From: Methylosinus sp. LW4
Lineage (GTDB): Bacteria > Pseudomonadota > Alphaproteobacteria > Rhizobiales > Beijerinckiaceae
Direction of reading: 5' to 3'
DNA length: 64,000 bases
NCBI RefSeq assembly: GCF_000379125.1
Contig: NZ_KB900627.1
Coordinates: 448,703-512,702 of the forward strand
Shown: positions 10,773 to 58,931 of the stretch, in pieces
Numbering within the stretch: position 1 is the first letter of the stretch
Layout of the letters: every line of letters begins with the position of its first letter
The notes under the pieces: generated by a model
The model's database searches: none
Told to the model about the DNA's origin: nothing
What the model saw: only the letters and a program-made list of their open reading frames with translations
Position numbers and translations under genes: made by a program

Positions 10773-10788
10773 GACGCGCGCACGCATT

Positions 10789-10804: not shown

Positions 10805-10886
10805 CATCCAAAGCGCATTTTCTTCAATGTAGAGCCATCGTCGAGATCGACGAGACCCAGCTAAGCAAAACCGAAAGGAACTCCAT

Positions 10887-11393: not shown

Positions 11394-11411
11394 CCGACGA
11401 CCATGCGACGA

Positions 11412-11441
11412 GCCGCTGCGCGATCAGCCTCGCGCAGCGGC
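11412..11441 (+). other. Strong stem-loop between the two hcp genes
   Basis: A perfect 12-base-pair GC-rich stem (arms 11412-11423 and 11430-11441) with a six-base loop sits in the 83-base gap between hcp and the second hcp-like gene. There is no T-run after it, so it is more likely a 3' stabiliser or partial terminator than a full terminator. Confidence 0.7.
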
Positions 11442-11476
11442 GACGACGAAATCGAAAATCGCCGCGGAGCATTTCC

Positions 11477-11959: not shown

Positions 11960-11970
11960 GGGAGACGGAC

Positions 11971-12510: not shown

Positions 12511-12514
12511 CGCT

Positions 12515-42057: not shown

Positions 42058-43455
42058 ATGAAAATACATGCGTGCATCATCATCGGCCTGACGGCGGTCG
42101 GCGCGATACTCGCGCCCGCCAGCGCCGAGACTTTGCCATCGGCTCTCGCGAGCGCCTATGCCTATAATCCCGATCTCAACCAGCAGCGCGCCAGCGTGCG
42201 CGTGCATGACGAGAGCGTCGCCAAAGCCTGGAGCGGCCTGCGGCCCAACGCCTCGGTGATCGCCGGCCTCGGCGCCATGCGGACCGAATTGCTGGTGCCG
42301 ACGATCCGCCTGCCCTTCATGCATGAGCGCATCTATCTGCATGGCGACCATGACGGCAATCCGCAGGCCGTGACCGTCAATGTCTCGCAGACGCTCTTCG
42401 ACGGCGGCCGCACGCTCAACAATGTGAAGAAAGCCGAATCCACCGTTCTCTCGGCGCGCGCCAATCTGCGGCTGATCGAGCAGGCGGTCCTGCAGAACGC
42501 GGCGACCGCCTATATGGACGTGCTGCGCGACACGGCGATCCTGTCGCTGCGTCAGAACAATATTCGCGTGCTGGAGCTGCAGCTCGCCAACACGCGGGAG
42601 AATGCGGCCGCCGGCTATCTGACCGAGACCGACGTCGCTCAGGCGGAAGCGGCCCTGTCGCAGGCGCGCTCCGATCTCTATGGCGCGCAGGCGCGGCTGA
42701 AGAGAAGCGCGGCCAGCTATCATCGCATCGTCGGCGAGGAGCCCAAGCGGCTGCAGCCCGCGGGCTCGGTGGAAAAGCTGCTGCCGCGCAGCGTCGAGGA
42801 CGCCATCGCCATCGCCACAGGCGCTCACCCCGGCGTGGAGGCGGCGCATCATCAGGTCGATGCGGCCGAATTCGCCGTCCATGCCGCGGAGGCGGATCTT
42901 CTTCCATCCGCCTCGGTGAGCGGCCAGCTCTCGCAGCAGAACGACTTCTTCCTGGGCCTGCCCGGATGGCGGCAATTCAGCTATGGCGTCAATGTGAACT
43001 TCCGCGTTCCGCTCTATCAGGGCGGCGCCGATTTCGCCTCGGTGCGCCAGGCGAAGGAGCAGGTGGGCCAGGCCCGCTTCGGCGTGGATATGCAGATGGG
43101 CGACGCGCGCGCCAATGTCGTCGGCAGCTACGCCTCGCTGGAGGCCGCCAAGCTGCAGATGAAGTCGGACCACGCCACGGTGAAAGCCGCAGAAATGGCG
43201 CTCAACGGCGTGCGCGAGGAGGCGAAGGTCGGCCTGCGCACGACGCTCGACGTTCTCAACGCGCAGCAGAGCCTGCTTCATGCGCGGGTGAATGTCGTCG
43301 TCTCACAGCATGACGTCGTCGTCGCCTCCTATGCGGCGCTGGCCTCGATCGGCCGGCTGAACCGGGCGGCGTTGAATCTGGACGTCGAGCATTACGACGC
43401 CGAGCAGCACTTCGAGAATGTGCGCGGCAAGTTCTTCGGCGTGGATACGCCCTGA
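42058..43455 (+). CDS. tolC: TolC-family outer-membrane channel
   Basis: This 465-residue protein provides the outer-membrane duct for a tripartite exporter. A signal peptide of about 23 residues ends ASA before ETLP. Two related halves with long helices and beta strands follow, with the typical LPSALASAYAYNPDLNQQRA, VSQTLFDGG (near residue 110), VNFRVPLYQGG (near 315) and TTLDVLNAQQSLLHA (near 395) segments. ATG 42058 is selected because it starts the signal peptide. It faces the convergent exporter operon, so it likely serves the DevBCA-like complex next door. Confidence 0.95.
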   Translation: MKIHACIIIGLTAVGAILAPASAETLPSALASAYAYNPDLNQQRASVRVHDESVAKAWSGLRPNASVIAGLGAMRTELLVPTIRLPFMHERIYLHGDHDGNPQAVTVNVSQTLFDGGRTLNNVKKAESTVLSARANLRLIEQAVLQNAATAYMDVLRDTAILSLRQNNIRVLELQLANTRENAAAGYLTETDVAQAEAALSQARSDLYGAQARLKRSAASYHRIVGEEPKRLQPAGSVEKLLPRSVEDAIAIATGAHPGVEAAHHQVDAAEFAVHAAEADLLPSASVSGQLSQQNDFFLGLPGWRQFSYGVNVNFRVPLYQGGADFASVRQAKEQVGQARFGVDMQMGDARANVVGSYASLEAAKLQMKSDHATVKAAEMALNGVREEAKVGLRTTLDVLNAQQSLLHARVNVVVSQHDVVVASYAALASIGRLNRAALNLDVEHYDAEQHFENVRGKFFGVDTP

Positions 43456-43486
43456 ACGACCTGCCGAGAATATCCCGTCGAAGAGC

Positions 43487-43520
43487 CGGCTTTCCTCAAC
43501 GAGACGGCTTTCTCAACGAG
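43487..43520. repeat. Imperfect direct repeat between tolC and the exporter operon
   Basis: CGGCTTTCCTCAACGAG (43487-43503) is repeated as CGGCTTTCTCAACGAG (43505-43520), differing by one base. The second copy includes the stop codon of the membrane-fusion gene, so this looks like a small local duplication. Confidence 0.6.
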
Positions 43521-44565
43521 CTGGCTTGGCGGCGACGAGCTCTCCGAAGAGATAGGCGTCCACTCTGAGCCCGACGGGCAGCTTGGCGTCGTCGTCGAGA
43601 TCGATGAGCACTTGCAGGACCTTCGTGTCGACGCGGTCGCCGGGACGCCCGGTCTGCACGATCTTCGAGCCCATTCGCGACGACACCCAGCTCACGCGGC
43701 CCTGGAACTTGCGCCCCGGATAGGCGTCGCTGACCACCTCGACGCGCTGATCCGGCGTCACCTTGCCGATGTCGGTCTCGTCCACCTCGGCGCGCACCTT
43801 GAGGCCGCGCAGATCGCCGACGATCGCGACCGCCGTCGGCGGCACATTGGTGACAGTCTCGCCCACCTCATGGGTGCGGCGCAAGACGGTTCCCGCCACC
43901 GGCGAACGAATGAAGGTCTTGTCGAACATCGCTTTCGCCGAGGCCAGCTCCGCATCGGCGAGCCGCAGCCGCGCGCGCGCGGCGTCGACGTCCTCGGAGC
44001 GCGCCCCGCTCTGCAATTGCGCGAGGCGCTGGGCGGCGACGGTGCGGCGCGCCTCGCTGGCGTCGAGATTGGCCTTCGTCTGATCGAGCATCGCCTGCGG
44101 CGAGACGCCCCGCTTGGCCAGCGGCAGCCGGCGCTCATAGTCGCGCCGCGCATATTTGAGCCCGGCGTCGGCTTCCGAAAGAGCGGCCTCAGCCTCGCGC
44201 AGCTCCTCGGCGCGCGCGCCATGCAGAATGCGGTCGAGCTCGGCCTGACGGAGCGCGAGCTGCGCCTGCGCGGAGGCGACGCGCGCGCTCTGCTCGGCGT
44301 TGTCGATGATGGCGATGATCTGCTCCGCCGTCACCTCGTCATTCTCCTCGACCTTGAATTCCTTGATGACGCCGACGATCTGCGCGGAGATCTCGCGCTC
44401 CTTGCTATTGGGCTCGACGACGCCGGGCGCGGCGGCGACCCGATGCTGCGAGACGAGCTTGGTGCTCGATGAGAGCGCCTGCTCCGCGCGGCCGCTCATC
44501 GTGGACGATACGGCGGCGAGGCCGACGAGAAGAAGAATGGCCGGCGACGGCCGATCGAGTTTCAT
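43513..44565 (-). CDS. DevB-like periplasmic adaptor (membrane-fusion protein)
   Basis: A 350-residue HlyD-family adaptor joining the inner-membrane ABC pump to TolC. A signal or anchor segment (residues 8-25) is followed by a lipoyl half-motif (ISAQIVGVIKEFKVEENDEV), a long alpha-hairpin of Ala/Arg/Glu-rich helices (90-210), the second lipoyl half (TFIRSPVAGTVLRR) and beta-barrel strands near 250-330. The order permease-ATPase-adaptor with 4-base overlaps matches DevCA-B type exporters that move glycolipids in heterocysts. Cargo here is inferred from neighbours. Confidence 0.92.
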   Translation of the reverse strand: MKLDRPSPAILLLVGLAAVSSTMSGRAEQALSSSTKLVSQHRVAAAPGVVEPNSKEREISAQIVGVIKEFKVEENDEVTAEQIIAIIDNAEQSARVASAQAQLALRQAELDRILHGARAEELREAEAALSEADAGLKYARRDYERRLPLAKRGVSPQAMLDQTKANLDASEARRTVAAQRLAQLQSGARSEDVDAARARLRLADAELASAKAMFDKTFIRSPVAGTVLRRTHEVGETVTNVPPTAVAIVGDLRGLKVRAEVDETDIGKVTPDQRVEVVSDAYPGRKFQGRVSWVSSRMGSKIVQTGRPGDRVDTKVLQVLIDLDDDAKLPVGLRVDAYLFGELVAAKPAR

Positions 44566-45284
44566 GACGCGCTCCCTGCGCCGAAGGAATGGGACGATTC
44601 TGGAGGCTTATCGACGATGCGGCCGTCCTCCAGATGCAAGACGCGATTCGCGAACTGAAAAATGCGAAAGTCATGCGTGACGATGACGACGGCGCGGCGG
44701 CCGTTGCGCGCGAGCGCCTGCAGAAGCTCCATCGCCTTCAGACCATTCTCGGAATCGAGCGCCGCCGTCGGCTCGTCGGCGATGAGGATCTCGGGATCGG
44801 CGGCGAGCGCGCGCGCGATCGCCACGCGCTGCTTCTGTCCGATGCTGAGCTCCGCCGGAAAAGCGTCGATGCGATGACCGAGGCCGACGCTGCCGAGCAG
44901 CTCATGCGCCCGGACACGCGCGACATCCTTATCGACGCCCATGAGATCGAGCGCGACCATCACATTCTCCGTCGCCGTCAGCATCGGGAACAGATTATGC
45001 GCCTGAAAGATGAAGCCGAAATGTTGAAGGCGGAGCTCGGCGAGCCGATCTTCGTCCAAAGTCTCGGTGGACTTGCCGCAAATGGTGATCTTGCCGGCGG
45101 TGGGGCGCAGCAGATGGCCGAGGATATGGACCAGCGTCGTCTTGCCGCTGCCGGAAGGGCCGACGAGGAGCAGGACTTCCGCCGGCAGAATATCGATGTC
45201 GATATTCTTCAGAACCTGGACGGCGCTCGGCCCTTCGCCGAAATTGTGAACGAGGCCGCGCGCGCTCAAAATGGGCTGCATCAT
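44562..45284 (-). CDS. DevA-like ABC transporter ATPase
   Basis: A 240-residue ATP-binding subunit of the MacB/LolD/DevA type. Walker A GPSGSGKTTL near residue 41, Q-loop FIFQAHNLF, signature LSIGQKQRVAIARAL (LSxGQ) and Walker B ILIADEPTAALD are intact. ATG 45284 overlaps the permease stop, and the stop overlaps the adaptor start, so all three are coupled. Confidence 0.95.
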   Translation of the reverse strand: MMQPILSARGLVHNFGEGPSAVQVLKNIDIDILPAEVLLLVGPSGSGKTTLVHILGHLLRPTAGKITICGKSTETLDEDRLAELRLQHFGFIFQAHNLFPMLTATENVMVALDLMGVDKDVARVRAHELLGSVGLGHRIDAFPAELSIGQKQRVAIARALAADPEILIADEPTAALDSENGLKAMELLQALARNGRRAVVIVTHDFRIFQFANRVLHLEDGRIVDKPPESSHSFGAGSAS

Positions 45285-46411
45285 CGGAACACCTTCACCG
45301 GATCGATCGTCATCACCTTGCCGATCGAGCCGATCGAGGCGGCGACGCACATCAGCATTGTCGCCACGACGATGCCGAAGGCGAGCCAGAGCGGCACCTC
45401 CGGCGCGGAGCTGAGATTGCGGGTGAAGATCACGACGACGCCGATGACGCCGAGGCCGATCGCCGCGCCGAACACGCCGCCGAGCACGGCCTGCTGCACG
45501 ATGATGCGGTAGAGATAGGAGCGCGGGCCGCCCATGGCGCGAATGACGGCGTATTCCGGCAGGCGGTCCATCGTGCTGGCGTAGAGAGTCTGCGCGACGA
45601 TGACGACGCCGACGAGCAGCGCCAGCAGAGTGGAGCTGACCAGCGTGATGCCGGCGCCGGTGGTCACGAGCCAATAATATTGGCTGCGCCAGGCGAGCTG
45701 TCCCGCCGTCAGCACCTCGACCTCCGACATGCGCGCGGCGAGCGCCTCGGCCACGGCCTCCGGTCTATAGCCCTCGGCGACGCGCACCAGCACATAGGCG
45801 ATGTCATTGTCCGGCGCATAGAAGAAGGATCGCGCCTTGGCGAGCGACATGAACACATAGGGCGCCTGGGTGAAGGTCCTTATGCCGTCCGTGAAGCCGA
45901 CCACGCGAATTCTGTGGCTGTTGATCTCGACCGTCTCGCCGAGCGTGCGAATGCCGAGCTTATCGGCATAGAGGCGATCGATCACCGCGCCGTCCGGCTC
46001 CGCCAGCGCCTCTTTCGCGCTCGGCCCCTCGACCATGGCGAAGGGCAGGCCCATGGTCGAATCGGGATCGATGCCGATGACGATGACGATCTGCCGAACG
46101 CCGTCCGGGCGCTTCAGAAAGCCGAAGTGGAGCATATAGGGCTCGGCCGCCGCGACGCCCTCCACCGACAGCGCCTGAAAGCGCCGCCGCTCCTGCAGAG
46201 GCGTCGCGAGATCGACGCTGGGCACGCCTTCCGCCGTGATCCAGAGATCGGCGCCGGCGTGATCGACGACGGTCGAGATCGTATGAACGAAATTCAGCAG
46301 CATTCCGAGCTGAATGCCCATCAATATCGTGGAGAAGGCGATGCCGGTGAGCGTGATGGCGAAGCGGATGCGATCATGGACGAGATTTCGCCATGCGATG
46401 AGCAAGGTCAT
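45281..46411 (-). CDS. DevC-like ABC transporter permease
   Basis: A 376-residue inner-membrane permease of the MacB/FtsX type. It has one N-terminal helix (IRFAITLTGIAFSTILMGIQLG, residues 16-37), a large periplasmic region of about 220 residues and three C-terminal helices near 260-360, ending DPVKVFR. The opening AWRNLVHDRIRFAI and early helix match cyanobacterial DevC. ATG 46411 is chosen; a GTG at 46486 is possible. It is 140 bases after the dehydratase-transferase gene, with a hairpin between. Confidence 0.92.
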   Translation of the reverse strand: MTLLIAWRNLVHDRIRFAITLTGIAFSTILMGIQLGMLLNFVHTISTVVDHAGADLWITAEGVPSVDLATPLQERRRFQALSVEGVAAAEPYMLHFGFLKRPDGVRQIVIVIGIDPDSTMGLPFAMVEGPSAKEALAEPDGAVIDRLYADKLGIRTLGETVEINSHRIRVVGFTDGIRTFTQAPYVFMSLAKARSFFYAPDNDIAYVLVRVAEGYRPEAVAEALAARMSEVEVLTAGQLAWRSQYYWLVTTGAGITLVSSTLLALLVGVVIVAQTLYASTMDRLPEYAVIRAMGGPRSYLYRIIVQQAVLGGVFGAAIGLGVIGVVVIFTRNLSSAPEVPLWLAFGIVVATMLMCVAASIGSIGKVMTIDPVKVFR

Positions 46412-46540
46412 CCGCGCGCCTTTCGACGCGGCGGCCGAGACGCTCTCGGCGCGGCTTTTCAGCGCGTATAGGGTATCGCCGGACACAAGGACCCTTTCCA
46501 CCTCGCCGCCAGCCGCCCCGCGGGGGACATTGCGGCGCCC

Positions 46541-46579
46541 TCGGAAAATACTCAAGCCGAGGCGCATTCCGCGCCTCGG
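46541..46579 (-). other. Hairpin at the end of the dehydratase-transferase gene
   Basis: Arms CCGAGGCGC (46557-46565) and GCGCCTCGG (46571-46579) form a 9-base stem with a 5-base loop. On the minus strand a short TATTTT follows near 46544-46549. It may reduce transcription of the exporter genes relative to the biosynthetic genes. Confidence 0.45.
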
Positions 46580-48276
46580 GGCGGAAGAGGAACGTCCTCC
46601 GTCACACAAGCTATTATAAAGCCATTGCTTTCTATAGTCTCGACAGCATAGGCGGACATGGTTTCCCGATCCTGGATTCGAATGCTCCCCTGTGGCGAAA
46701 AATCGACCGCTTCGAGCGATTTCAGCCTTCCGTCGACGCCGGAGCCGAGCAGCTTTCCCACCGCCTCCTTGGCTCCCCAGAGCCGGGTGATCCATTCGGC
46801 GCGACGGGACGCTGCGAGCGCCTTCACCTTCTCGCGCTCGTCAGGGCCGGCGACGGCGGCGAGAAATCCATCGTCCCGATCGGCGATCCGCTCTATGTCG
46901 ACGCCGACGCGCCCGCTATGGGCGGCGGCGATCGCCCGATCCTCGCAATGGGCGATGCTGACATGGGGCAGGGCCTCGCGCCCGTCCGCGCCGGCGACAT
47001 AGGGGCGGCCGGCCGGGTCGGATCGGAGGAGGATCGCGGCCGGATGCGCCATTTCGGCCCCCGTGCGGTCGCTGATCCAGCGTCGGACGCAATCCTTGGC
47101 GACCGTGCGGCCGAGCAGCCATTGGCGCTGGCGCGCCGGAAAGCGGGTGTGGCTCTCATAGACGGCGGCTTCCTCGAGGCCGAGACAATCGCGCGCGAGC
47201 ATTCGCGGATCGAATTTGCCGAGATCGGGCTCGGCGAGGTGGAGGACCAGCGGGCCGTCGGCCGTGTTCCCGACCGGCGCGGGCCGGCCGAGCAGAAATT
47301 GTCCGGGCGCGCGGCGGTAATCGACGAGCCGCCGCTCCCATTGGAATTTCCAGCAGCGCAAATCCGCGATACGCATCCAGACGCCGCCTTCGCCATCCTC
47401 CACCTCGACATCGGCGTGAATGGTCTTGCCGTCGGTCTTGCGCAGCTCGATGCGCACGGGGACGAGCGATCCCGCGGGCGGCGTCGGCCGATAGAGCTCG
47501 AGCTTGCCGAGCCCCACGGGAAACGCATAGCGATCCCGCTGCATCGCATGGACGCCCACCATCTGGCAGATAGCGTCGAGCACGCAGGGCTGCAGCAGCA
47601 GCTGAGGCTCCGTTGTGGAGCGAAACAGGCCGGCGGGCGAGGGGATGCGCAAATGGCCGGCGATGCGCCGATCCTCGACGAAAACCTCGCCGAAGAGGCA
47701 GCGGAAGGCCGGCCCATGGAACAAATGACGCTCGGCGTAGAGGTGCGCGGCGTCGATCCTGAGCGCGGTCCCTGCGTCGAGCGCGTCGAAATCCGGGAAC
47801 AGCTCCAACAGATAGTAGCGGCCGAACAGCAGCGTCGCCTCGATCGACGGCCCGCTCTGGCCTTCGGCGCGAATGGCGGCGCGCACGAATGTAGCCTCGC
47901 GCTGCGGATCATAGCGGTCGAGACGCGCTTCGATCGTCAAAATTGCGGACTCGGCGTCGACGAGATCGATCCATCTCGTCGCCTTTATCTCCTCGACGCC
48001 GATGAGCCCCTGTCCCGGAACGACACAGGCCGCGACCTCCGCCATCGCCTCTATGCTCATCGTCATCGGCAGCACGGGCAGACAGGCCGAGAGCGGCTTG
48101 ACGCCGGGCGCGTGAACAAAGGCGTGGTCGGCGAGATAGAGGTCCTCGTCGAGATGCAGGACGCGCTCGACGAGGACGCTCTCGCCTTGCGTCGCGGCGA
48201 TGACGCGGCCGACGAAAGGCAGCGCGCCGCCGCGTCTCGACACGATCCGATCCCGAGCTTCGAGCACGGCGTCCAT
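46552..48276 (-). CDS. Polyketide dehydratase fused to a 4'-phosphopantetheinyl transferase
   Basis: This 574-residue protein has two functions. Residues 1-320 form a double-hotdog dehydratase like those in enediyne and PUFA-type synthases (LADHAF with His51, LPVLPMTMSIEAMAE, and LDAICQ with Asp234). Residues about 380-560 form a Sfp-like transferase with GVDIERI (458-464) and WGAKEAVGK (500-508), which would load carrier proteins with phosphopantetheine. It lies 11 bases after the type III PKS gene. It should act in trans on the large synthase, which lacks a dehydratase, and could also prime the other PKS/NRPS carrier domains. Confidence 0.92.
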   Translation of the reverse strand: MDAVLEARDRIVSRRGGALPFVGRVIAATQGESVLVERVLHLDEDLYLADHAFVHAPGVKPLSACLPVLPMTMSIEAMAEVAACVVPGQGLIGVEEIKATRWIDLVDAESAILTIEARLDRYDPQREATFVRAAIRAEGQSGPSIEATLLFGRYYLLELFPDFDALDAGTALRIDAAHLYAERHLFHGPAFRCLFGEVFVEDRRIAGHLRIPSPAGLFRSTTEPQLLLQPCVLDAICQMVGVHAMQRDRYAFPVGLGKLELYRPTPPAGSLVPVRIELRKTDGKTIHADVEVEDGEGGVWMRIADLRCWKFQWERRLVDYRRAPGQFLLGRPAPVGNTADGPLVLHLAEPDLGKFDPRMLARDCLGLEEAAVYESHTRFPARQRQWLLGRTVAKDCVRRWISDRTGAEMAHPAAILLRSDPAGRPYVAGADGREALPHVSIAHCEDRAIAAAHSGRVGVDIERIADRDDGFLAAVAGPDEREKVKALAASRRAEWITRLWGAKEAVGKLLGSGVDGRLKSLEAVDFSPQGSIRIQDRETMSAYAVETIESNGFIIACVTEDVPLPPRGAECASA

Positions 48277-48287
48277 GCGATCCGCGC

Positions 48288-49541
48288 TCAGATCTTCTCG
48301 AGCACGAGGCCGGTCGCGGTGAGGCCGGGGCCGAAGCCCAGCGCCACGACATGCGCGCCCGTGGGAATGGAGCGCTCCTCGACGATCGCCTTCAGAATAT
48401 GCGGCACGGTGGCGGAGGACATATTGCCATTCTCGAAGAACACATTCTTGCTCATCGCCACCTGATCGTCGTCGAGCTTCAGCTCGGATTGGATATGCTC
48501 GACGATCTTGGGTCCGCCGGGGTGAATGGCGAAATAGAGCCGGCTGCGCTCGCGCTCGAAATCCAGCCCGGCGCGGCGCAAAAGGTCCTCGACAAAGCCT
48601 TTGACCGCGGCCTTGATGACCACCGGCACCATGATCGACAGGCTCATATGGAAGCGCGTCGGACCCGGCACCCAGGTCATGTCGTCGGCCGAGTCGGGAA
48701 GCAGATGCTCGTTATAGGCGAGCACCTTGAGGCCGGAGAGGCCCTGGCTCCTCAGATAATCCTCGGTGACGGCGGAGTATTTGATGAAGCCGTCCGCGAA
48801 CAGAGTCATGGTGATGATGTTCTGCGCGGTGAGCTCCTCGGCGTCGCGATGCGCGGAGAGAATCTCCGTATGCACGATATCGACGCGCTCCTTCGGCGGC
48901 GTGACGCCCATATGGGAGGAGGCGAGAAAGCCATGCGCCATGCGTATGGCCGGAAAGGCGCCGTAGCAGCCCATATGATAGCTGTGCGTGACGGTCGTGC
49001 GCAGCCAGCCCTTTTTCGCGGTCATGCGCTCGACCGGGCTCGGCGCGAGATAGCCCGAGCAGGTGACATGGATGAGATCGTCCGGCGCCTCGAAAACATC
49101 GGCGTATAGTTTCTCGAGGCAATCATCCGCGACATGCGCGTAGCTCTCGTGCCGCGCCTTCAAATCCTTCGGATTGAGATCGCGGTAATTGTCGAAGAGC
49201 CGCATATATTCTTCTTCCGGCTCGGCGACGGAGAATTCGCCGTCGGCGAAGACGATATCCTTCAGGCGCGGAAAAAAGACGAGCTGGCGCGCTTTCACGA
49301 CCGAGGGAGACAGTCCGTAATTGGAAAATTTCTGCCTGATCTCCTGATGCTTGGCGAAGAACGCCTCTTTGTCGGTCAGACCGTTGCGCGAGCAGAAGGC
49401 GCGCGCGAATCCATAGGCGCTGAGCTCCAGCGTCAGACCTTGCGGCGTCGGATCGGCCATGCGCACCGGAACGAAATCGGTGAGGCAGCAAGCATTTTTG
49501 ACGCTGGCGCGCGTAAGGCGCTCGGTAAGTGCGAAAGACAT
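48288..49541 (-). CDS. Type III polyketide synthase (chalcone/stilbene synthase family)
   Basis: A 417-residue homodimeric ketosynthase-like enzyme that extends an acyl starter with malonyl-CoA and may cyclise it, for example to a resorcinol or pyrone. The catalytic triad is visible: Cys192 in HMGCYGAFPA, His340 in AIHPGGPKI and Asn373 in NGNMSSAT. A ribosome site GAGGGGG precedes ATG 49541. It lies 38 bases after the large synthase and 11 before the dehydratase-transferase, in one operon. This pairing recalls Azotobacter ArsA-D, where a fatty-acid synthase feeds a type III PKS. Starter length is unknown. Confidence 0.9.
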   Translation of the reverse strand: MSFALTERLTRASVKNACCLTDFVPVRMADPTPQGLTLELSAYGFARAFCSRNGLTDKEAFFAKHQEIRQKFSNYGLSPSVVKARQLVFFPRLKDIVFADGEFSVAEPEEEYMRLFDNYRDLNPKDLKARHESYAHVADDCLEKLYADVFEAPDDLIHVTCSGYLAPSPVERMTAKKGWLRTTVTHSYHMGCYGAFPAIRMAHGFLASSHMGVTPPKERVDIVHTEILSAHRDAEELTAQNIITMTLFADGFIKYSAVTEDYLRSQGLSGLKVLAYNEHLLPDSADDMTWVPGPTRFHMSLSIMVPVVIKAAVKGFVEDLLRRAGLDFERERSRLYFAIHPGGPKIVEHIQSELKLDDDQVAMSKNVFFENGNMSSATVPHILKAIVEERSIPTGAHVVALGFGPGLTATGLVLEKI

Positions 49542-49579
49542 TTTTTAAACCCCCTCTTCGACCCGCCCGTTTCGACGCC

Positions 49580-52500
49580 TCATTGGCGCAGCGCCAATTG
49601 CGCAATTCTCTGCATGCTCGCCGCGACGACGATCTCTGGATTTCCGGTCGCGCCGCGCGCCAGCTCGTCCAGGCATTCCTGCCGTCCCTGCTCGATCTCG
49701 AGCGTGCGAATGTCCTTGGATTCGTAGAGCCGGCGCAATTCGTCCGTGACCATGCCCCCGTTCCACGGCCCCCAATTGATCGCGACGACATGCGTCTTGG
49801 GCCATTCGAGGCTCAGCCGCGAGGCGAGCTTGTTCAGCACCTCATTGGCCGCGCTATAATCGCTCTGGCCGGCGTTACCGAAACGCCCCGCGATCGACGA
49901 GAAGAACAGCAGGAAGCGTAGCGCTTCGGGACGCAGCTTCTCGATCAGCGTGAAGGCCGGCGTCGCCTTGGTCGCGAAGACGCGATCGAAAGAGTCGAGC
50001 GTCTTGTCGCGAATGAGGCGATCGTCCAGCACGCCGGCGCCATGCAGCACGCCGTCTATGCGGCCGAAGCGCGCATACACATCATCGATGAGCCGGCCGA
50101 AAGCGTCGGCGTCGGTGATGTCGAGCGAATGATATTCGACGCGCGCGCCGGCCGCCGTCATCGCCTCGAGATTGGCGAGGATCCGGCGATCCTTCAGCAT
50201 GCGCTTCCATTCGCGCTCGATCTCGACGGGCTTCACCTTCGGATTTTCGCCGCGCAGCCTGCCGATCAGAAATTCTTTCAGCTCGCTCGCGGAAAGTCGC
50301 CTTGTCTCCTCGGGCTCCGCCGCCGGCGCGGGGCTGCGCCCGACGAGGACGAGCCGCGGACGATAGGCGGAGGCGACCGCTCTCGCTATATCGGCGGTGA
50401 TGCCATAGGCGCCGCCGGTCGCGAGCACGACGGCCTCGGGATCGAGACGCAGGCTCTCGATCTCGGCCGTCGCGGCGCTCGCCCGGCCGAGATCGAGCGT
50501 CCAGCGCCCGTCCTCGGTGAGGCCGATCTCGAGCGGCGCGGCGCGCAGGCCGGCCTCGATCATCAGCTCGCGCGCGATCACATCCTCCGCGAGCCGCGGA
50601 TCGACGTCGATGCAGCGCACGCGCAAATCCCGCCATTCCTGCGCGGCGGATTTGGCGACGCCGAGCGAGCCCGCCGCGGCGGCCGAAAACCTTTGCTGTC
50701 GACGCAGGCCGAATTGGCCGTCGAGCGCGGTCACATTGACGAGCCAGCCGCCGCCGCGGCCGGCGCTGTCCTTCAAATCGCCTTCGAAAGTCTTGAGCAG
50801 CTGAAACAGATTGCGCGCGCAGGCGAGTCGGCGCCGATCCTCGGCGCCCTCGCCGTCGAGCCCGGCGAGGTTGAACAGTGCGCCGACGCGATAGCGGCCT
50901 TCGGCGAGACGCGTCGCCAGCGCCTTCACTCCTTCAGGATCGGCGAAGTCGATCGTCATCGCATCCGTCGCGAGCGGCGCCGTCTGGTCGCCCGGCAGCA
51001 CGCGCCAAACCTGATAGCCGCGCGCCTTCAGCGCCGAGTCGAGCGCCGTGGCGATCGGCGTCGCCTCGCCGACGATGAGGATCATGCGCTCATAAGGATA
51101 GCCGTCCATCTCCGACGCCCGCGCGGCGCGCGGCGCGGGGAGGGGGGCGAGCACATAGCGAAGCGTTTCTTTAGAACCCACTGTCTCACTATTGGACTCC
51201 ACCGTCCCCAGCGGGGACAGAGACGACGGAGCCTGAGATTTTTTTGCCGGTTCGGCTCCTTCCGCTTCCGCGCGGCGCGCATGCAGGCCGTCATACCATT
51301 CGACGACGGCGTTCAATGTCTTGAGCCCTGCGAGCTCGTCGAAGATCGCTTCTTCGTCGCGCCCCTCCATGAAGGGGAAGCGATCCTTGAGCTGGTTGAA
51401 AATCTCGATCCGCTTGATGGAGTCGACGCCGAGATCGGCCTCCATATGGGCGTCGAGATCGAGCATTTCCTCCGAATAGCCAGTGCGCTCGATCATTGTG
51501 GCGAGAAGCTCGGCCTTGAATTGCGCGGTCGGCGGCATTTCGATCGATGCGCCCTCGGCTTTCGGGGCCGTGGCGCCATTGGCGTGCGCCGGCGCTTTTG
51601 CAATGGGCGCAGCCGCCGCGCCATTGGCGGCCGCGAGAATCGCCTCCGGCAGCACAGGAACCGGCACGCTCGGCGTCAGCAGACGTTGCGGCGCCGGCGC
51701 GACGGGTTCGAGGCGCTGCGGCGCCTCGAACCGGGCCGGCTCTGGCGCAGGCTCGTCGTAAGAGGCCGTCTCGGCGCCGGCGAGGAGCCGCTCCTGCAGC
51801 GCGATGAAACGCTGCAGCGTCACCTGCTGCTCGCGCTGCAATTCGATGAGCTGCGTCAATTCACTGCGCATCTGCGCCATCGTCGGCGGCGAGCCTCGCG
51901 GACTCGCCGCGGCCGGCGCGGGCTCGCCGGCTTTCGGCTCTTTGTCGCTCACCATTTCTCTCCTTCGATACGGGATCGGCGTCGCTGCGACGCCATTCGA
52001 TTCGATGGGCTTTCGAGGTCCGCTCGCGCCATTGACGGCGACGGGCGCGGGCGGCTTCTCGCTCGGAATGCGGATCGGCTCGGGCGCCGAGCTTTTCTCG
52101 ACCGCCGTCGACGCCGGAGCACGCCAAGGAACCGCCTTGCCGCCGCTGACGCGCCAGACCGAGGCCGGCGGATCGGCGGCGGCCGCGGCCTCGTCGAGCA
52201 GCGCTTGCAGCCGCAATTCCGCGAAGCCCCGATGACGGAACCATTGCGCCACGTCCACCGGCAGGCCGAGCGTGATCGCCTGGGCGACCAAATGCCCGAA
52301 TTGCAGCCAGCCCGGACGCTCCGGCGCATCGACGGCGAGCGTCACATGCTCGCGCTTGCCGAGAATGCGATCGACGAGGCCGCTCAGAACCATTCCCGGC
52401 CCCGCCTCGATGAAGACGCGCGCGCCCGCCTCATAGAGGCGCTCGATCTCCTCGACGAAGCGCAACGGCTCGGCGATATGGCGCGCCAGCAGCGCCTCTA

Positions 52501-55500
52501 TCTCCCGCGCCTCGCTCGGATAAGGAGCGGCGGTCGTATTGCCGTAGACGGGCAGCTTCGGCGCGGCGAATTCGATCTTCGACAATTCCGCGGCGAGACG
52601 CGCCTGTGCCGGCGCCATTGCGGCGCAATGAAAGGCCGCCGTCACCGGCAGGCGCTTGGCGCGCAGACCCTGCGCGCGGAAGGCTTCGACCGCTCTGTCG
52701 ATTGCAGCGCCGGCGCCGGCGACGATCGTCTGATCGGGCGCGTTGAGATTGGCGATCGCGACCTCGAGGCCGAGTGAATGGATCACTTGCGCGACGCGCG
52801 CCTCGTCGGCGGCGACGGCGGCCATCGTCCCGCCGTCGGCCGCGGCGGCCTCGGCCGAAATCTGGCCGCGAATCTGCGACAGCTTCAGGAGATCGTCGCG
52901 CGAGATCGCGCCGGCGACGCAGAGCGCGACATATTCGCCATAGGAATGGCCGGCGACGAAATCCGGCGCGAGGCCGAATTCGGCGAGAAGATCATAGGCG
53001 GTGAGATCGGCGACGCCGAGCGCCGGCTGCGCGGCGCGCGTGTCGTCGAGCTCCACCTTGCGACGCTCGCGCTCCTCCTCGGAAAAGCTCGGCAGGGGAA
53101 AGATATATTGCGAGAGCCGCTGCGGCAGCGCGCCCGCGAGAGCCTGATCCGCACGCTCGAAGAGGCCGTGACTCGATGGGCGCGACATCACGAGATCGCT
53201 CAGCATGTCGAGCTTCTGCGAGCCTTGCCCGGGGAAGAGCATGCAGACGCCGCCGGCCGGCGCCTCTGCGCCGCGATCATGAAAATAGATCCCTTGCGGC
53301 GCTCTGATCGTGCGCTTGCCCTTGCCTTGGCGCAGGAAGAATTCGAGCTTCGATCGCAGATCCTCGACCGAGGTCGCGACGATCGCCAGACGGCTCACCG
53401 GCTCGCCGGCGGGATGGCGGATCGCCTGCTCGTCGAGATGCAGCGAATAGGCGAGCTGCCCGAGCGAGAGAAGGTCTGGATGGACGAGCCGCTCGAGAAG
53501 GCTCTGCGCGGCGCGCTCGACCTCCGCGCCATCGGCGCGCGTCACCACGATGAGCTCGGCGGCGCGCGGCGTGAAATTCTCGACGTCGCCCGCGCGATAG
53601 CCGCCGTCATATTCCTCGAGGACGGCGTGGAAATTGGTGCCGCCGAAGCCGAAGGCGCTGACGCCGCAGCGCCGCGGCTCGTCCGGCGAACGCGCGAGCC
53701 ATGGCCGCGCGCGCGTGTTCACATAGAAGGGCGTCTGCGAAAAATCGACGCGCGAGCTGGGCTTGTCGACGCCGAGCGTCGGCGGCAGCACACGATGCTT
53801 CAGCGCCAGGGACGCTTTGATGATCGCCGCGAGACCGGCCGTCACCTTGGTGTGGCCGATCATCGATTTGACCGAGCCGACCGCGCAGGACTGGCGCGCC
53901 GCGCCATCCTCGCCGAAGACCTGGGTCATCGACTTGATCTCGCATTTGTCGCCGACGGCCGTGCCGGTGCCATGCGCCTCGATGAGCGCGACGCTCGCCG
54001 GGCTCACGCCGGCTTTCTCATAGGCGCGCTGCAGCGCCAGCGCCTGGCCTCTATTGTCCGGCGCGGTCAGGCTGCGATTGCGGCCGTCGCTCGAGCTGCC
54101 GACGCCCTTGACCACCGCATAGATATGATCGCCGTCTCGCTCCGCGTCCGAGAGGCGTTTCAGCACGATCGCCGCGACGCCTTCGCCGAGCACAATGCCG
54201 TCCGCCGCATCCGAGAAGGGGCGGCACACGCCCGTCGGCGACAGCGCATGAGTCTGGGCGAAGGACATGAAGGCCATGCAGCCATTGGCGCCGTCTATGC
54301 CGCCGACGAGGGCCACATCGGCGTCATGCGACTGCAGCTCGCGAATGCCGGCGTCCAGCGCGGCGAGCGAGGAGGAGCAGGCCGCATCGACAGTGAAATT
54401 GGCGCCGCGCAGATCGAGGCGATTGGAGACGCGGCCCGCCGCCACATTGGCCAGAAAGCCGGGGAAAGAGTCCGGCGTCCATTGCGGCAGCTCCTTGCCA
54501 TGGAGAGAGGAGACGATATGCGCGCGCGTCTCCTCCGAGAGGCCGGCGACTTTCGGCAGATAATGCGAGAGCAGCGTGCGGAAGACATAGAGCGTTCCGA
54601 GCTCGTTCATCGCGCCGCTGGCGAAGATCGTCGCGGTGCGGTCCTTGGGGAAGGGCCGGCGATCGAAGCCGGCGTCGGCCAGCGCTTTCGTGGCGACATG
54701 CAGCGCCAGCAATTGCACCGGCTCGATCGACGGCAGGCTCGCCGGCGGAATGCCATAGGCGGTCGGATCGAAGGCGATCTCGTCGAGGAAGGCGCCCCAT
54801 TTCGAATAGACGCGATCCGGCGCGCGGGCCGTGTCGAAAAAATCGCTCGGACGCCAGCGATCCTCCGAGACCTCGCGGAACATGCAGACGGATTGGACGA
54901 TATTGCGCCAGAAGGCGCGCGCGTCCTTCGCGCCGGGCATGACGCAGGCCATGCCGACGATGGCGATGTCCTCGCCCTTTTGTCGCGCGGCGCGCGCGTT
55001 CGCCGCCTCGGCCGCGACGCGCCGCCTCGCGAGCAGATCGGCGGAGCCGCGCGAAACCTCGTCATGCAGCTCGGCGATGGTGAGCGTGTCGCGACGCAGG
55101 CGCGCGACCTCGCCCATCATATAGAGGCCTTCGCGCCGCTGCGCCTCGACATCCAGCTCGACATAGCCGCCGCTCTCGTCGAGGCCCTTCTGCTCGCCCT
55201 TATGCGCGAGGCCCTTGGATGCGATGCGCAGACGGCCGACATTGAGCAGCTCCAGCGCCACCAATTTCTCCTCGTCCGACTTACCCTCGCGGATGAGGCG
55301 CCGGCGCGTCGCGTCGAACTCGTCGCAGAAGGGCGTCGCGGCGCAGCGCGTGTAGAGGCCGACGCCCGATTGCAGGAGCGCCGTCTCCTCGCAGCGCAGC
55401 GCTTGGTTCTGAAACTCCTCGAGGATCGCGCCGGCGCTCACCGCCTCGCGGGTGAAGAGATAGGCCGTGCCCATCAGCACGCCGATCTTCATGCCGCGCG

Positions 55501-57022
55501 CCGCGAGCGGCGCGGCGAGGCAGGAGACCATCGCCGCCGACAGAGCGTCATGCACGCCGCCGGCGAAGAGAATCTGCACCGAGCGCGGATCGTCGATCTT
55601 GGCGTCGGCCAGAATCTCGATCGCGGATTCCCAAAGAACGAAGCTCGCGCGCGGGCCGGTATGGCCGCCGCATTCGCCGCCCTCGAAGATGAATTTTCGC
55701 GCGCCCTCCTTCAGGAACCCCTGCAGCAGGCCGGGCGAAGGGACATGAAGATAGGTCGAGACGCCGAGCGCCTCGAGATCGCGCGCCTGGCTCGGACGGC
55801 CGCCGGCGATGATCGCGAAAGGCGGCTTGGTTTCGGAAATGGCGTCGATCTGCTCCTGGCGCAGCTCCAGCGGCGTGAAGCCCAGCATGCCGACGCCCCA
55901 GGGCTTCTCGCCCATGAGCGCCTTCGTCTGCGTGAGCAGCGCGCGCGCCTGCGGCCCACGCAGCACCGACAGAGCGAGAAAGGGCAGGGCGCCGCCATCC
56001 GCCACTGCGCGCGCGAAAGGCGCGACGTCGCTCACCCGCGTCATCGGCCCTTGCACGATCGGATAGCGCGCTCCGTGAATGGTCGCGAGATCGGAGCCTT
56101 CGGCGAAAAGCGTCTCGACGCCCGGCGGCGCGGCCGTCTCCAACGCCTCGGCGATCGCGGCGACGGCGCGCCCGGTCGAGCCATAGCGGCGCGCGAATCC
56201 GCCCGCGAAGGCAATGTCCTGACCCATTGGCAGAACAGGGTCTTCGCCCTGCGACGATCGGCGCAGCAGCGCCCGCCAATCCTCGCCCTCGGCGACGGCG
56301 CGCTCCAGCGCGCGCAGCTTCTCCCTTCCGTGCCGGCTCGAGAGCCGCAGCATTGACGAGCCGTCGCCGATGACGACCGTCTCGCCGCCGTCGAGCCGGC
56401 TCCAGGAAGCGGCGAGAGCCGGCGCTCCATAAGGCCCTTCCTCGGTGAGCCAGAGCTGCTCGCAGAGCACGACGCCCGCCGCGCCGGCGAGCGCCGCCGC
56501 CGCCGCCGCGCTGCGCGGCCCTATGCCGCCCTCCGCCCAGAAGGGAATGCGCAGCGCGCCCGAAAATTCCTGCAACAGTATGAAAGACGAGGATTTGCCG
56601 ATCCGGCCGCCGGCCTCGGCGCCCTTGACGACGACGCCGTCATAGCCCGCCTCCTGGGCCGCCAGCGCGCTTTCGAGATCATAGACCTCGAGAGCGACGA
56701 AGCAGGCGAAGCGCGCCGCGCTCGCGCGGATCGCCGCGGCCTCTTCGCCGGAAACCCCGGCGACGACGAGACTATCGACATGGCCGTCCACCAGCCGCTC
56801 GAGCTCGGCGACGCTCGCCACGCTCGAAAATTGCGCGTCCCAACGCAATCCCCATTTTCCGACCGCCGCCTTATCGCGAAGGCGCGCGAGCGTCGCACGA
56901 AGCGCGTCGTGATCGGCGTCCGCACCAATGTCGAGAAGCCCGGAGCCCCCGGCCCGGGTGGCTGCAACGATAATTTCAGCGTTTCTACATCGGCTGGGAG
57001 AAACAGCCGCTACTCGCTCCAT
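49580..57022 (-). CDS. PUFA-synthase-like iterative megasynthase with tandem flavin enoyl-reductase-like domains
   Basis: This 2480-residue enzyme likely builds a long acyl chain iteratively. Domains: a first nitronate-monooxygenase-like barrel (1-290; KGAEAGGRIG, AEGGIG), a second PfaD-like barrel (310-620; IVQGPMTRVSD, FEGGECGGHTG, LFAGG), KS 690-1120 (Cys882, EAHGTGT, MIGHTKVTAG), AT 1220-1540 (Ser1360 in GHSYGEY), a Pro/Ala-rich linker, one ACP (DLGVDSIKR, Ser1868) and KR 1960-2470 (TGGAYGIT; Tyr2389 in QSDYSAANE). The ACP and KR motifs are those of PfaA/HglE-type synthases. In PUFA systems the enoyl reductase PfaD is usually separate, and ACPs are in tandem. Dehydration is presumably supplied by the next-but-one gene. 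Confidence 0.93.
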   Translation of the reverse strand: MERVAAVSPSRCRNAEIIVAATRAGGSGLLDIGADADHDALRATLARLRDKAAVGKWGLRWDAQFSSVASVAELERLVDGHVDSLVVAGVSGEEAAAIRASAARFACFVALEVYDLESALAAQEAGYDGVVVKGAEAGGRIGKSSSFILLQEFSGALRIPFWAEGGIGPRSAAAAAALAGAAGVVLCEQLWLTEEGPYGAPALAASWSRLDGGETVVIGDGSSMLRLSSRHGREKLRALERAVAEGEDWRALLRRSSQGEDPVLPMGQDIAFAGGFARRYGSTGRAVAAIAEALETAAPPGVETLFAEGSDLATIHGARYPIVQGPMTRVSDVAPFARAVADGGALPFLALSVLRGPQARALLTQTKALMGEKPWGVGMLGFTPLELRQEQIDAISETKPPFAIIAGGRPSQARDLEALGVSTYLHVPSPGLLQGFLKEGARKFIFEGGECGGHTGPRASFVLWESAIEILADAKIDDPRSVQILFAGGVHDALSAAMVSCLAAPLAARGMKIGVLMGTAYLFTREAVSAGAILEEFQNQALRCEETALLQSGVGLYTRCAATPFCDEFDATRRRLIREGKSDEEKLVALELLNVGRLRIASKGLAHKGEQKGLDESGGYVELDVEAQRREGLYMMGEVARLRRDTLTIAELHDEVSRGSADLLARRRVAAEAANARAARQKGEDIAIVGMACVMPGAKDARAFWRNIVQSVCMFREVSEDRWRPSDFFDTARAPDRVYSKWGAFLDEIAFDPTAYGIPPASLPSIEPVQLLALHVATKALADAGFDRRPFPKDRTATIFASGAMNELGTLYVFRTLLSHYLPKVAGLSEETRAHIVSSLHGKELPQWTPDSFPGFLANVAAGRVSNRLDLRGANFTVDAACSSSLAALDAGIRELQSHDADVALVGGIDGANGCMAFMSFAQTHALSPTGVCRPFSDAADGIVLGEGVAAIVLKRLSDAERDGDHIYAVVKGVGSSSDGRNRSLTAPDNRGQALALQRAYEKAGVSPASVALIEAHGTGTAVGDKCEIKSMTQVFGEDGAARQSCAVGSVKSMIGHTKVTAGLAAIIKASLALKHRVLPPTLGVDKPSSRVDFSQTPFYVNTRARPWLARSPDEPRRCGVSAFGFGGTNFHAVLEEYDGGYRAGDVENFTPRAAELIVVTRADGAEVERAAQSLLERLVHPDLLSLGQLAYSLHLDEQAIRHPAGEPVSRLAIVATSVEDLRSKLEFFLRQGKGKRTIRAPQGIYFHDRGAEAPAGGVCMLFPGQGSQKLDMLSDLVMSRPSSHGLFERADQALAGALPQRLSQYIFPLPSFSEEERERRKVELDDTRAAQPALGVADLTAYDLLAEFGLAPDFVAGHSYGEYVALCVAGAISRDDLLKLSQIRGQISAEAAAADGGTMAAVAADEARVAQVIHSLGLEVAIANLNAPDQTIVAGAGAAIDRAVEAFRAQGLRAKRLPVTAAFHCAAMAPAQARLAAELSKIEFAAPKLPVYGNTTAAPYPSEAREIEALLARHIAEPLRFVEEIERLYEAGARVFIEAGPGMVLSGLVDRILGKREHVTLAVDAPERPGWLQFGHLVAQAITLGLPVDVAQWFRHRGFAELRLQALLDEAAAAADPPASVWRVSGGKAVPWRAPASTAVEKSSAPEPIRIPSEKPPAPVAVNGASGPRKPIESNGVAATPIPYRRREMVSDKEPKAGEPAPAAASPRGSPPTMAQMRSELTQLIELQREQQVTLQRFIALQERLLAGAETASYDEPAPEPARFEAPQRLEPVAPAPQRLLTPSVPVPVLPEAILAAANGAAAAPIAKAPAHANGATAPKAEGASIEMPPTAQFKAELLATMIERTGYSEEMLDLDAHMEADLGVDSIKRIEIFNQLKDRFPFMEGRDEEAIFDELAGLKTLNAVVEWYDGLHARRAEAEGAEPAKKSQAPSSLSPLGTVESNSETVGSKETLRYVLAPLPAPRAARASEMDGYPYERMILIVGEATPIATALDSALKARGYQVWRVLPGDQTAPLATDAMTIDFADPEGVKALATRLAEGRYRVGALFNLAGLDGEGAEDRRRLACARNLFQLLKTFEGDLKDSAGRGGGWLVNVTALDGQFGLRRQQRFSAAAAGSLGVAKSAAQEWRDLRVRCIDVDPRLAEDVIARELMIEAGLRAAPLEIGLTEDGRWTLDLGRASAATAEIESLRLDPEAVVLATGGAYGITADIARAVASAYRPRLVLVGRSPAPAAEPEETRRLSASELKEFLIGRLRGENPKVKPVEIEREWKRMLKDRRILANLEAMTAAGARVEYHSLDITDADAFGRLIDDVYARFGRIDGVLHGAGVLDDRLIRDKTLDSFDRVFATKATPAFTLIEKLRPEALRFLLFFSSIAGRFGNAGQSDYSAANEVLNKLASRLSLEWPKTHVVAINWGPWNGGMVTDELRRLYESKDIRTLEIEQGRQECLDELARGATGNPEIVVAASMQRIAQLALRQ

Positions 57023-57575
57023 GTCTCAGCCCCATCCATTCGCGCACGAAGACGCAACATCCGCCATCGCAAAGCATTATTTCTTCAAACATCGAAGCCG
57101 ATGGTCGCGCTTCCCTGGAAAGCGACGCCGAACCTGTGCGCCGCACCCAAAAACAAGGCAATATGCTCAAAAGCCCGGCTTCGAAAAGCCGGAGAGCAAT
57201 TCTCCCTCCGGCCTCATGATCTACAATCCAATTCGATTCGACCTGCGTCGACGTGATGCAGATCGCGCCGGCACAGTCGCTCATCGACGCCTTCCCCAAA
57301 AGCAAGCTCTGCGCCATCCCTTTACGGGACTGGGCAAATTTGCCGGCGAAGCCGCCCGGAAGGATCGATCCTCGGTCCGTTGGAGACGTCGAAATCGACG
57401 CGCCGAGCCGGACCATGCGCAGATTTAGACGAAGATGCTGTGACTTGGCGCACATCCCGGTTTTCGATAATGATGATGATGCGGAGCGGACCGCGAGTCC
57501 GTCGCCTGATTGCGCGACGCGACGAAGCGTCGTCCTGGTCGATTTCAAGAAATTCATCGAGGAAGGGTGGCCCCC
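57023..57575. promoter_or_regulatory. Divergent intergenic region between the megasynthase and glycosyltransferase
   Basis: These 553 bases have no convincing gene, though they must hold both promoters. A hairpin with perfect 7-base arms CCGGCTT/AAGCCGG and a CGAA tetraloop is at 57175-57192. A 12-base palindrome AGGATCGATCCT is at 57361-57372. An open frame on the minus strand runs through most of it but lacks protein-like composition. Confidence 0.5.
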
Positions 57576-58931
57576 GTGACGTCACGCCCGAAATTCGCGA
57601 TCGTCACCATAGGAAGCGGCTCCTATCTCGGCTCGACCGTCCATGACGCCACGCTGGCCAATGCGCTCCGCCGCCGCGGTTACGAGGTCGTCGTCTATTG
57701 GATGCTCGAAGAGACGCCCGAGCTTCTCGCCGAGGGAGTCGAGCAGAGGATGCTGTGCCACGGCACGCGCTATCAATTCTCGCGCCCTTCGGAATTCATG
57801 GACCGAGTCATCGGCCGCATCGCCTTTCGCCTGCCGCGGAAATTGCGGCGCGCCGTCGCCCAGGGCGTTCCGGGCTTCGTCGAAAATCTCATGCGCAATC
57901 TGGTCCGCTCGCTCTTTTGCTACGAGCGGACCGACGTCGCTCTCGCCGAGCGCCTCGCGCGCTTCATCGAGCAGGACGGCGTCACCCATGTCAAAATGGG
58001 TTTCGGCTCGATCGGCGGGCTGGCGCAGGAAGCGCAAAAGCGCACGCGCAAGCGGTTCGATTATTTGGTGACGTTTCAGGGCGACGAGGAATTCGCGAGC
58101 CTCGCGGAAGCCTGCGGCGTGACGGATGTCTATCGCCGCCGCGTGGACGAGGCGGTGCGAGGCGCCCGCTGGCCGGCGATCGTCCTCAGCCGTCATTACG
58201 CGTCGCGTCTCGTCGATGATCTTCGTCTCGACGGCTCTCGTCTCGAGGTTCTCTATTGCGGGATCGAGCCGCCGCAGCAAGGGACGGCCCCCGATTTCTC
58301 GATTCTGACGGAGACCTTTCCGCGTCTGCGGCGCGATCTTCCGATCCTCGCCTTCGTCGGCCGCCAGGAGAGCGAGAAGGGCATCGACCTGCTTCTCTAT
58401 GCGGCGAAAATTCTTCTCTCCCGCGGGCTGCGCTTTCAGCTGGTCGTCTGCGGCGCCACGGCGAAGGGCCTCGCCTATCGCGCCGCCATTCGGGATATTG
58501 TGACGCATCTCGGCGTCAATCTCCATCATTCCGGCGCCATCTCGATAGCGACGCGCGACGCTCTTTTCGCGCATTGCCGCTGCGCCGTATGCCCCTCCAT
58601 CAATGGCGAGCCCTTCGGGCTCGTGGTCGCCGAGGCCATGAGCCTCGGCGCTCCGGCGGTCGTTCCCGATTATGGCGGAGTCGCCGAGGTGGTGGATGAT
58701 GGCGTCCGCGCCGGCGGATTGATCTTTCGATGCTGGGACAGCGGCGATCTCGCGCGGCAGCTCGAACGCCTGCTGACCGACGACGCGCTGCACGCCGAGC
58801 TCGCCGATAATGCGCCCCGCGTCGCCGCGCGCTTCTCGACCGAGAATATGGTCGACGGCTTTCTCGCGCATATCGGCCTGCAGGAGAAGGCCGAGCCGCA
58901 AATTCTCCATGAGGACGCGACGAGCCTCTAG
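57576..58931 (+). CDS. GT4-family glycosyltransferase
   Basis: A 451-residue GT-B fold enzyme that transfers a sugar from a nucleotide donor. The N-terminal half begins FAIVTIGSGSYLGSTVHDATLANALRRRG; the C-terminal half has FVGRQESEKGIDLLLYA (near residue 260) and the GT4 donor-site motif SINGEPFGLVVAEAMSLGAPAVV (near 345), including the E-x7-E pair. GTG 57576 with GGAAGGG upstream is preferred. No signal or membrane segment is seen, so it acts in the cytoplasm or at the membrane surface. It is divergent from the lipid operon and is likely its glycosylation step. Confidence 0.88.
   Translation: MTSRPKFAIVTIGSGSYLGSTVHDATLANALRRRGYEVVVYWMLEETPELLAEGVEQRMLCHGTRYQFSRPSEFMDRVIGRIAFRLPRKLRRAVAQGVPGFVENLMRNLVRSLFCYERTDVALAERLARFIEQDGVTHVKMGFGSIGGLAQEAQKRTRKRFDYLVTFQGDEEFASLAEACGVTDVYRRRVDEAVRGARWPAIVLSRHYASRLVDDLRLDGSRLEVLYCGIEPPQQGTAPDFSILTETFPRLRRDLPILAFVGRQESEKGIDLLLYAAKILLSRGLRFQLVVCGATAKGLAYRAAIRDIVTHLGVNLHHSGAISIATRDALFAHCRCAVCPSINGEPFGLVVAEAMSLGAPAVVPDYGGVAEVVDDGVRAGGLIFRCWDSGDLARQLERLLTDDALHAELADNAPRVAARFSTENMVDGFLAHIGLQEKAEPQILHEDATSL

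Follow-up and report, generated by a model that had tools for sequence, protein, structure and literature searches.

Genes for a fatty-acid megasynthase, a type III polyketide synthase (PKS) and a three-part exporter stand together in Methylosinus sp. LW4, and raise the question of what lipid is made there and where it is sent. The locus lies in a stretch of 64,000 nucleotides of contig NZ_KB900627.1 (positions 448,703 to 512,702; hereafter "the window"), where six minus-strand genes spanning 57022 to 43513 encode an ArsA-like synthase, a type III PKS, a protein with fused dehydratase (DH) and 4'-phosphopantetheinyl transferase (PPT) domains, a permease, an ATPase and an adaptor. It is probably a unit of this Methylosinus species for the production and export of a phenolic lipid, related to the arsABCD system of Azotobacter vinelandii, with which that bacterium makes the waxy phenolic lipids found in its dormant cysts. 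All genes that a preliminary description of the same DNA had named were found, each on the strand given there. The series and the two genes beside it are as follows.

49580..57022, minus strand: arsA-like fatty-acid megasynthase with two NMO/PfaD-like enoyl reductase (ER) regions, ketosynthase (KS), acyltransferase (AT), one acyl carrier protein (ACP) and ketoreductase (KR)
48288..49541, minus strand: arsB-like type III PKS with Cys192, His340, Asn373 and Trp290, the last being the resorcinol-type residue
46552..48276, minus strand: arsD-like protein, a PS-DH dehydratase domain fused to a PPT
45281..46411, minus strand: devC-like permease (MacB_PCD and FtsX)
44562..45284, minus strand: devA-like ATP-binding cassette (ABC) ATPase
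43513..44565, minus strand: devB-like periplasmic adaptor of the HlyD family
42058..43455, plus strand: tolC-family outer-membrane channel, convergent with devB and placed in the ars-linked TolC clade
About 57576..58931, plus strand: family-4 glycosyltransferase (GT4), divergent from arsA; the open reading frame is open from 57510, and the start was set by homology to Methylosinus sp. C49

The start of the arsA-like gene is uncertain: its coordinates are those of the longest open reading frame, and the C49 homologue is annotated as 2424 amino acids. The gaps between arsA, the type III PKS gene and arsD are 38 and 11 bases, and the permease, ATPase and adaptor genes overlap by four bases at each junction. 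Plasmid pMSC49a of strain C49 has the identical annotated gene order and matches a 22-kb query with 100% coverage at 94.7% DNA identity, so that the arrangement is not a product of chance.

Biosynthetic core

Judged by sequence, the biosynthetic half is an already known system for phenolic lipids, ars (Type P), and is orthologous to the Azotobacter ars operon. An ArsA-type synthase, a PKS of the ArsB/ArsC kind with the Cys-His-Asn triad, and a fused DH-PPT ArsD, which characterize this system, are all found; the orthologues of ArsA, ArsB and ArsD stand in the same order as in A. vinelandii with the same triad and Trp, while A. vinelandii has two type III PKS genes and the window has one. Compared with A. 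vinelandii ArsA, identity is 68% in KS, 66% in the PfaD-like NMO, 63% in KR, 62% in ACP, 59% in AT and 46% in the first NMO region; the linker is 36% identical, and the KS, AT, ACP and KR motifs are retained. ArsD, with both its DH and PPT domains, is 49% identical. KR, DH and a PfaD-like ER are present, and therefore full reduction of the chain would be possible. The window PKS is 64% identical to A. vinelandii ArsB and 60% to ArsC, and it matches the structures 3vs9 (1e-169) and 3vs8 (8e-168) of the PDB over 403 residues, which are ArsC G284W and wild-type ArsC, respectively (PMC6274091).

Shulse and Allen (2011; PMC3098273) placed the ars genes of A. vinelandii and those of Beijerinckia indica in a single class of PfaA-like synthases, Type P. 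Like the window, B. indica plasmid pBIND02 carries arsA, type III PKS, arsD, GT4, devC, devA and devB, there all in one direction; unlike the window, it has two type III PKS genes, its GT4 gene is inside the series, and no TolC gene is found in the scanned flanks. The preliminary description saw in the window a merger of the HglE and Ars logics. However, Azotobacter ArsA is itself PfaA-like, with 46–68% domain identity to the window protein; PfaA-likeness is ArsA's own property, and therefore there is no HglE contribution and no new merger. The further statement that no system with this exact gene set had been described stands for the export side, within the literature searched (main texts; Funa 2006, Miyanaga 2008 and Segura 2009 lay outside the search), but not for the biosynthetic half, already present as Type P in B. 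indica (PMC3098273). In this literature, therefore, the export side is what is new, and the biosynthetic core was already known.

Export modules linked to the ars genes

A genome scan gave 123 relatives of the PKS, of which the best 80 were kept; the 30 of these 80 loci that have arsA, arsB and arsD are called core loci here. One core locus (L002) ends before any exporter, and export counts cover the other 29. An ABC export module lies downstream of arsD in all 29: a LolD plus LolC/E-type pair in 24 and DevBCA in five, with both kinds or neither in none. DevBCA-type loci belong to Beijerinckia mobilis, three Methylocystis and one Methylocystaceae metagenome-assembled genome, and the window is likewise of this type. 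Lol-type loci are found in Azotobacter, Methylobacter and other Methylococcales, Methyloversatilis, Azoarcus, Massilia, Duganella, Burkholderia, Paraburkholderia and others; 23 of the 24 have a LolA-like gene (the exception, L020, is cut) and 17 an outer-membrane barrel gene. Some loci have a glycosyltransferase or methyltransferase gene between arsD and the exporter. The neighbourhood, whose comparison across genomes had been proposed as a check in the preliminary description, is thus conserved in relatives.

In the window, the ATPase, permease, adaptor and TolC-family channel are encoded together, which is the gene set of a tripartite ABC-adaptor-TolC system, and the best NCBIfam models are TIGR02982 (DevA) for the ATPase and TIGR01185 (DevC) for the permease. 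Because the linkage is conserved and the genes are absent together (see below), it can be inferred with good reason that DevBCA-TolC exports the phenolic lipid. The heterocyst glycolipid system of Anabaena, DevBCA-HgdD, is similar in having a PfaA-like synthase and an adaptor, permease, ATPase and TolC-family channel for a long-chain lipid (PMC8277102). It differs in the type of synthase, and the window has a type III PKS, a predicted aromatic product and exporter scores below the Dev cut-offs.

An ABC module and a GT4 gene are also present downstream in Azotobacter, where they are unremarked in the literature searched. LolD, LolC/E-type, LolA-like and barrel genes stand there in place of DevBCA and TolC, and the window differs further in that its GT4 gene is divergent from arsA. 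The A. vinelandii module consists of an ATPase nearest to LolD, an FtsX permease nearest to LolCE (both below the curated cut-offs), a PF17131 LolA_like protein and a protein of no family. AlphaFold models the last as a beta barrel (17 sequences, mean pLDDT 74.8, residues 1-85 below 50), whose fold neighbours, general porin and AlgE barrels at TM about 0.5, do not indicate a function. The module of beta- and gammaproteobacteria thus has a family resemblance to the LolCDE-LolA machinery of lipoprotein sorting; in contrast to that machinery, the predicted cargo in Azotobacter is a phenolic lipid and the scores lie below the LolD and LolCE cut-offs, while the window has no such gene at all.

Export of phenolic lipids is undescribed in the literature searched, and the words "transporter", "glycosyl" and "export" are absent from the text of PMC3098273. 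Independent support comes from a proteomics table on the A. vinelandii algU mutant, in which Avin_29510 is given the value 0, beside ArsC (29530), ArsB (29550) and ArsA (29560), and is annotated as "ABC-type antimicrobial peptide transport system, ATPase component" (PMC10651043). From its place and the accompanying text on ArsA, ArsB and ArsC, this is taken as the encystment table. Avin_29510 is identified with the LolD-like gene that comes next to arsD by the order of the tags and the annotation rather than by a sequence match; it receives this single, undiscussed mention in the main text of the paper and none elsewhere in the literature searched.

In the ArsB tree, which is rooted at the midpoint only, the window groups with Beijerinckia and Methylocystis in a single set (100/99), which includes all DevBCA-type rows and the cut L002. 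On this midpoint-rooted tree, a single exchange from Lol to Dev would be the simplest history, with Chlorobium outside. Two Chlorobiaceae loci outside the core (L030, L033) combine the PKS with distant LolD, LolE and LolA-like genes; both also have, beside the type III PKS, a second PKS-like copy without the His and Asn of the triad. In Methylocystis (L003:19202-21195 and L141-L145), methyltransferase and FAD oxidoreductase genes lie between devB and tolC, and the lipid may be further modified there.

Co-inheritance and edges of the ars block

A family search found the PKS at 1e-60 in 14 of 397 genomes, among them 3 of the 10 listed source-genus members; in two of the 14 (G693 and G703), neither ArsA nor ArsD is found beside the PKS. 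An order-wide search with ArsB matched 127 of 397 genomes, none but the source genome above 35% identity, in an even sample that missed 13 relatives found by the family search. Plasmids carry the locus in Methylosinus sp. C49 (pMSC49a) and B. indica (pBIND02), which is consistent with this patchy spread; in the source genome, it is on a contig of 842,783 bases. The source genome also has three PmoA/AMO matches, and the one compared with the PDB is closest to 3chx, a Methylosinus trichosporium structure, in keeping with a Methylosinus host.

Among 12 chosen genomes, devC stands at the ars locus in all nine that bear ars and has no match at 1e-10 in the three ars-free congeners; its best match away from ars scores 147 bits, versus at least 518 bits at ars. 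The source genome has four TolCs above the family cut-off. Both ArsB and ArsA occur in 12 family genomes, and TolC was looked for in the flanks of 11 of these (all but G737). A TolC gene lies within about 3.4 kb of the series in nine of these 11 DevBCA-type genomes, and the nine ars-linked TolCs fall on one side of a branch versus 19 other TolCs (90/95; 88% of bootstrap trees).

One end of the block is visible in the ars-free congener G552, which keeps a 63-residue tail of the glycosyltransferase beside topB (L133, G552:C4:12000-31000, from 10059). DNA similarity to the window resumes there at 58723, within the glycosyltransferase gene, and continues through topB. Only the 3' end of the gene is kept, and therefore ars and most of the glycosyltransferase gene are missing as one block; in G564, similarity stops at about 58881. 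These alignments put the right-hand limit of the ars block where the glycosyltransferase gene ends. The preliminary description treated tolC and the glycosyltransferase gene as flanks. They are indeed present, but on these comparisons they are not mere flanks, both being linked to the ars series in evolution.

Opposing evidence and alternative explanations

Some observations weigh against the reading of the locus as a phenolic-lipid production and export unit, or against parts of it. Pfam model PF00195, for the N-terminal part of type III PKSs, has no match in the source genome; the label is kept nevertheless because of the C-terminal model PF02797 (6e-20), the PDB matches and the Cys-His-Asn triad. 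The exporter scores lie under the curated NCBIfam Dev cut-offs (DevB 93 of 129, DevA 234 of 296 and DevC 132 of 290 bits), although it may still work like DevBCA. No TolC gene is present within the scanned ars flanks of two Beijerinckia genomes, and tolC of the window starts about 0.2 kb behind a 3679-residue PKS gene on the same strand. B. indica is said not to be known for cysts or phenolic lipids (PMC3098273). Half of the 30 core loci (15) have no intact GT4, and in the window the gene is on the strand opposite to the series. Finally, glycosyltransferase distances track those of ArsB over 19 loci (r 0.85; 0 of 5000 permutations as high), which speaks for the linkage, but such a correlation is expected of any co-inherited gene pair and is not proof of joint function.

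It is quite possible that GT4 serves a surface polysaccharide or another pathway and merely travels with ars. The core loci comprise 15 with full-length GT4, two with a broken or cut copy, six with an HpnI-like family-2 glycosyltransferase and seven with neither; the seven, together with the divergent orientation in the window, favour such a role, as does the best NCBIfam model, an exopolysaccharide GT4, though far under its cut-off (73 of 400 bits). On the other hand, in both Beijerinckia genomes GT4 has the same orientation as the series and stands with arsD on one side and devC on the other, and, among 20 chosen genomes, GT4 at 543 bits or more is found in five (the source, two congeners and two Beijerinckia), always beside ars, other full-length relatives reaching at most 47 bits. 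Six Methylocystis genomes among the 20 are without an orthologue; linked GT4 recurs from alpha- to gammaproteobacteria. A PDB look-up returned generic GT4 matches only, which indicate no donor sugar. GT4 is a plausible candidate for the enzyme that glycosylates the phenolic lipid, a step suggested in the preliminary description; the linkage supports this role rather than proving it, and is not universal.

It is rather unlikely that an alkylpyrone, or some other tetraketide lipid, is the product instead of a resorcinol. ArsC, to which the window PKS is also closely similar, is a pyrone maker, and a single residue decides in Azotobacter: ArsB W281G yields pyrones in place of resorcinols (PMC6274091). 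Trp290 of the window PKS, in which the triad Cys192, His340 and Asn373 is conserved, aligns with this residue, whereas the Azotobacter ArsC copies have Gly. Because Trp290 is shared with ArsB, a long-chain alkylresorcinol is strongly predicted as the product. An exported phenolic lipid, with a resorcinol among the options, had been proposed from the start, and this agrees with the prediction from ars orthology, Trp290 and the linked exporter. Across the 30 core loci, the first PKS copy has Trp in 26 and Glu in four, namely Burkholderia sp. lig30 and three Paraburkholderia (L021-L024), while L016, also a Paraburkholderia, is among those with Trp. Among second copies, the residue is Gly in three Azotobacter and Leu in B. 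mobilis. Loci L021-L024 also lack barrel and glycosyltransferase genes, and their product may differ.

Much more doubtful is an accidental adjacency to ars, with DevBCA-TolC exporting the product of the neighbouring cluster of PKS and nonribosomal peptide synthetase (NRPS) genes (18212-41839). The 3679-residue PKS gene adjoins tolC in G463 and G564, too. Nevertheless, loci of Methylocystis and Beijerinckia without a match to this PKS have devCAB downstream of arsD, and the ars-linked TolC of Methylocystis is present without it. An assignment of TolC to the PKS-NRPS cluster alone was rejected in view of the ars-linked TolCs in the wider flanks and the TolC clade.

A heterocyst-glycolipid-like system, in which an HglE-type synthase, DevBCA and an HgdD-like channel would yield a hydroxy-lipid glycoside, is hardly credible, since the PfaA-like synthase beside a Dev-like exporter and TolC, with TIGR02982 and TIGR01185 as top models, is outweighed by the ArsA domain order, the DH, the single ACP, the orthology to Azotobacter ArsA and the sub-cut-off Dev scores. 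Membership in HglE (Type F, as defined in PMC3098273) was rejected, as no KS-CLF-AT partner (hglC) is found among the series proteins. A polyunsaturated fatty acid synthase (PfaA-E) was likewise rejected: the TIGR02813 cut-off is passed (1058.9 of 1010.1), yet there is one ACP stretch and no PfaB or PfaC in the series.

Proposed working and implications

For the phenolic-lipid unit, we infer the chemical, transport and developmental steps as follows. The PPT domain of ArsD would load the ACP of ArsA, and ArsA (KS, AT, KR and PfaD-like ER) together with the DH of ArsD would build a saturated very long acyl chain. In Azotobacter, the chain is C22-C26 and is passed directly from the ArsA ACP to the PKS (PMC3098273, PMC6274091); by analogy, both may apply to the window system. 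The ArsB-type PKS would take over the chain, add malonyl units and close the 5-alkylresorcinol, to which the linked GT4 may add a sugar. Transport to the outer membrane or the surface would fall to the DevC-DevA pump, the DevB adaptor and the ars-linked TolC, and would probably take place in resting stages, which in Methylosinus are exospores; the methanotrophs Methylosinus and Methylocystis have exospores and "lipid" cysts as resting forms (PMC7285482).

More generally, we tend to favor the view that phenolic lipids of the cyst type are served by exporters of their own, which have escaped notice even in Azotobacter, and that in evolution one biosynthetic core has been equipped with either of two interchangeable machines. 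In beta- and gammaproteobacteria, this would be an ABC extractor similar to Lol, working with a LolA-like carrier and a barrel in the outer membrane; Beijerinckia, Methylocystis and Methylosinus would instead use DevBCA-TolC as a conduit. On this view, the resorcinol is glycosylated by the linked GT4. Azotobacter cysts contain alkylresorcinol galactosides, although these did not come up in the literature searched. If this view is true, the Azotobacter GT4 would be the missing enzyme for these galactosides. The route of a very long-chain phenolic lipid to the cyst outer membrane and exine, undescribed in the literature searched, becomes a question of gene deletion in A. vinelandii, for which markerless deletions have been published, arsABCD among them (PMC12358690). 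With the two modules, nature would also provide a way to compare, for a single predicted cargo, a route by soluble carrier with a trans-envelope conduit. Furthermore, some Methylosinus and Methylocystis are predicted from the locus to have alkylresorcinols.

Neighbouring genes

The PKS-NRPS cluster at 18212-41839 encodes a 2504-residue KS-AT-condensation-adenylation protein, a thioesterase, a Rieske protein, an AMP-ligase with a carrier domain and the 3679-residue PKS with two KS domains. Type VI secretion genes occupy 7080-18191 (ImpA_N, VipB sheath, TssF, TssG and a ClpV-like AAA protein). Between the glycosyltransferase gene and topB, at 59017-59873, a gene for an Xre/MbcA/ParS-type antitoxin is followed by a RES-domain gene, likely forming a toxin-antitoxin pair.

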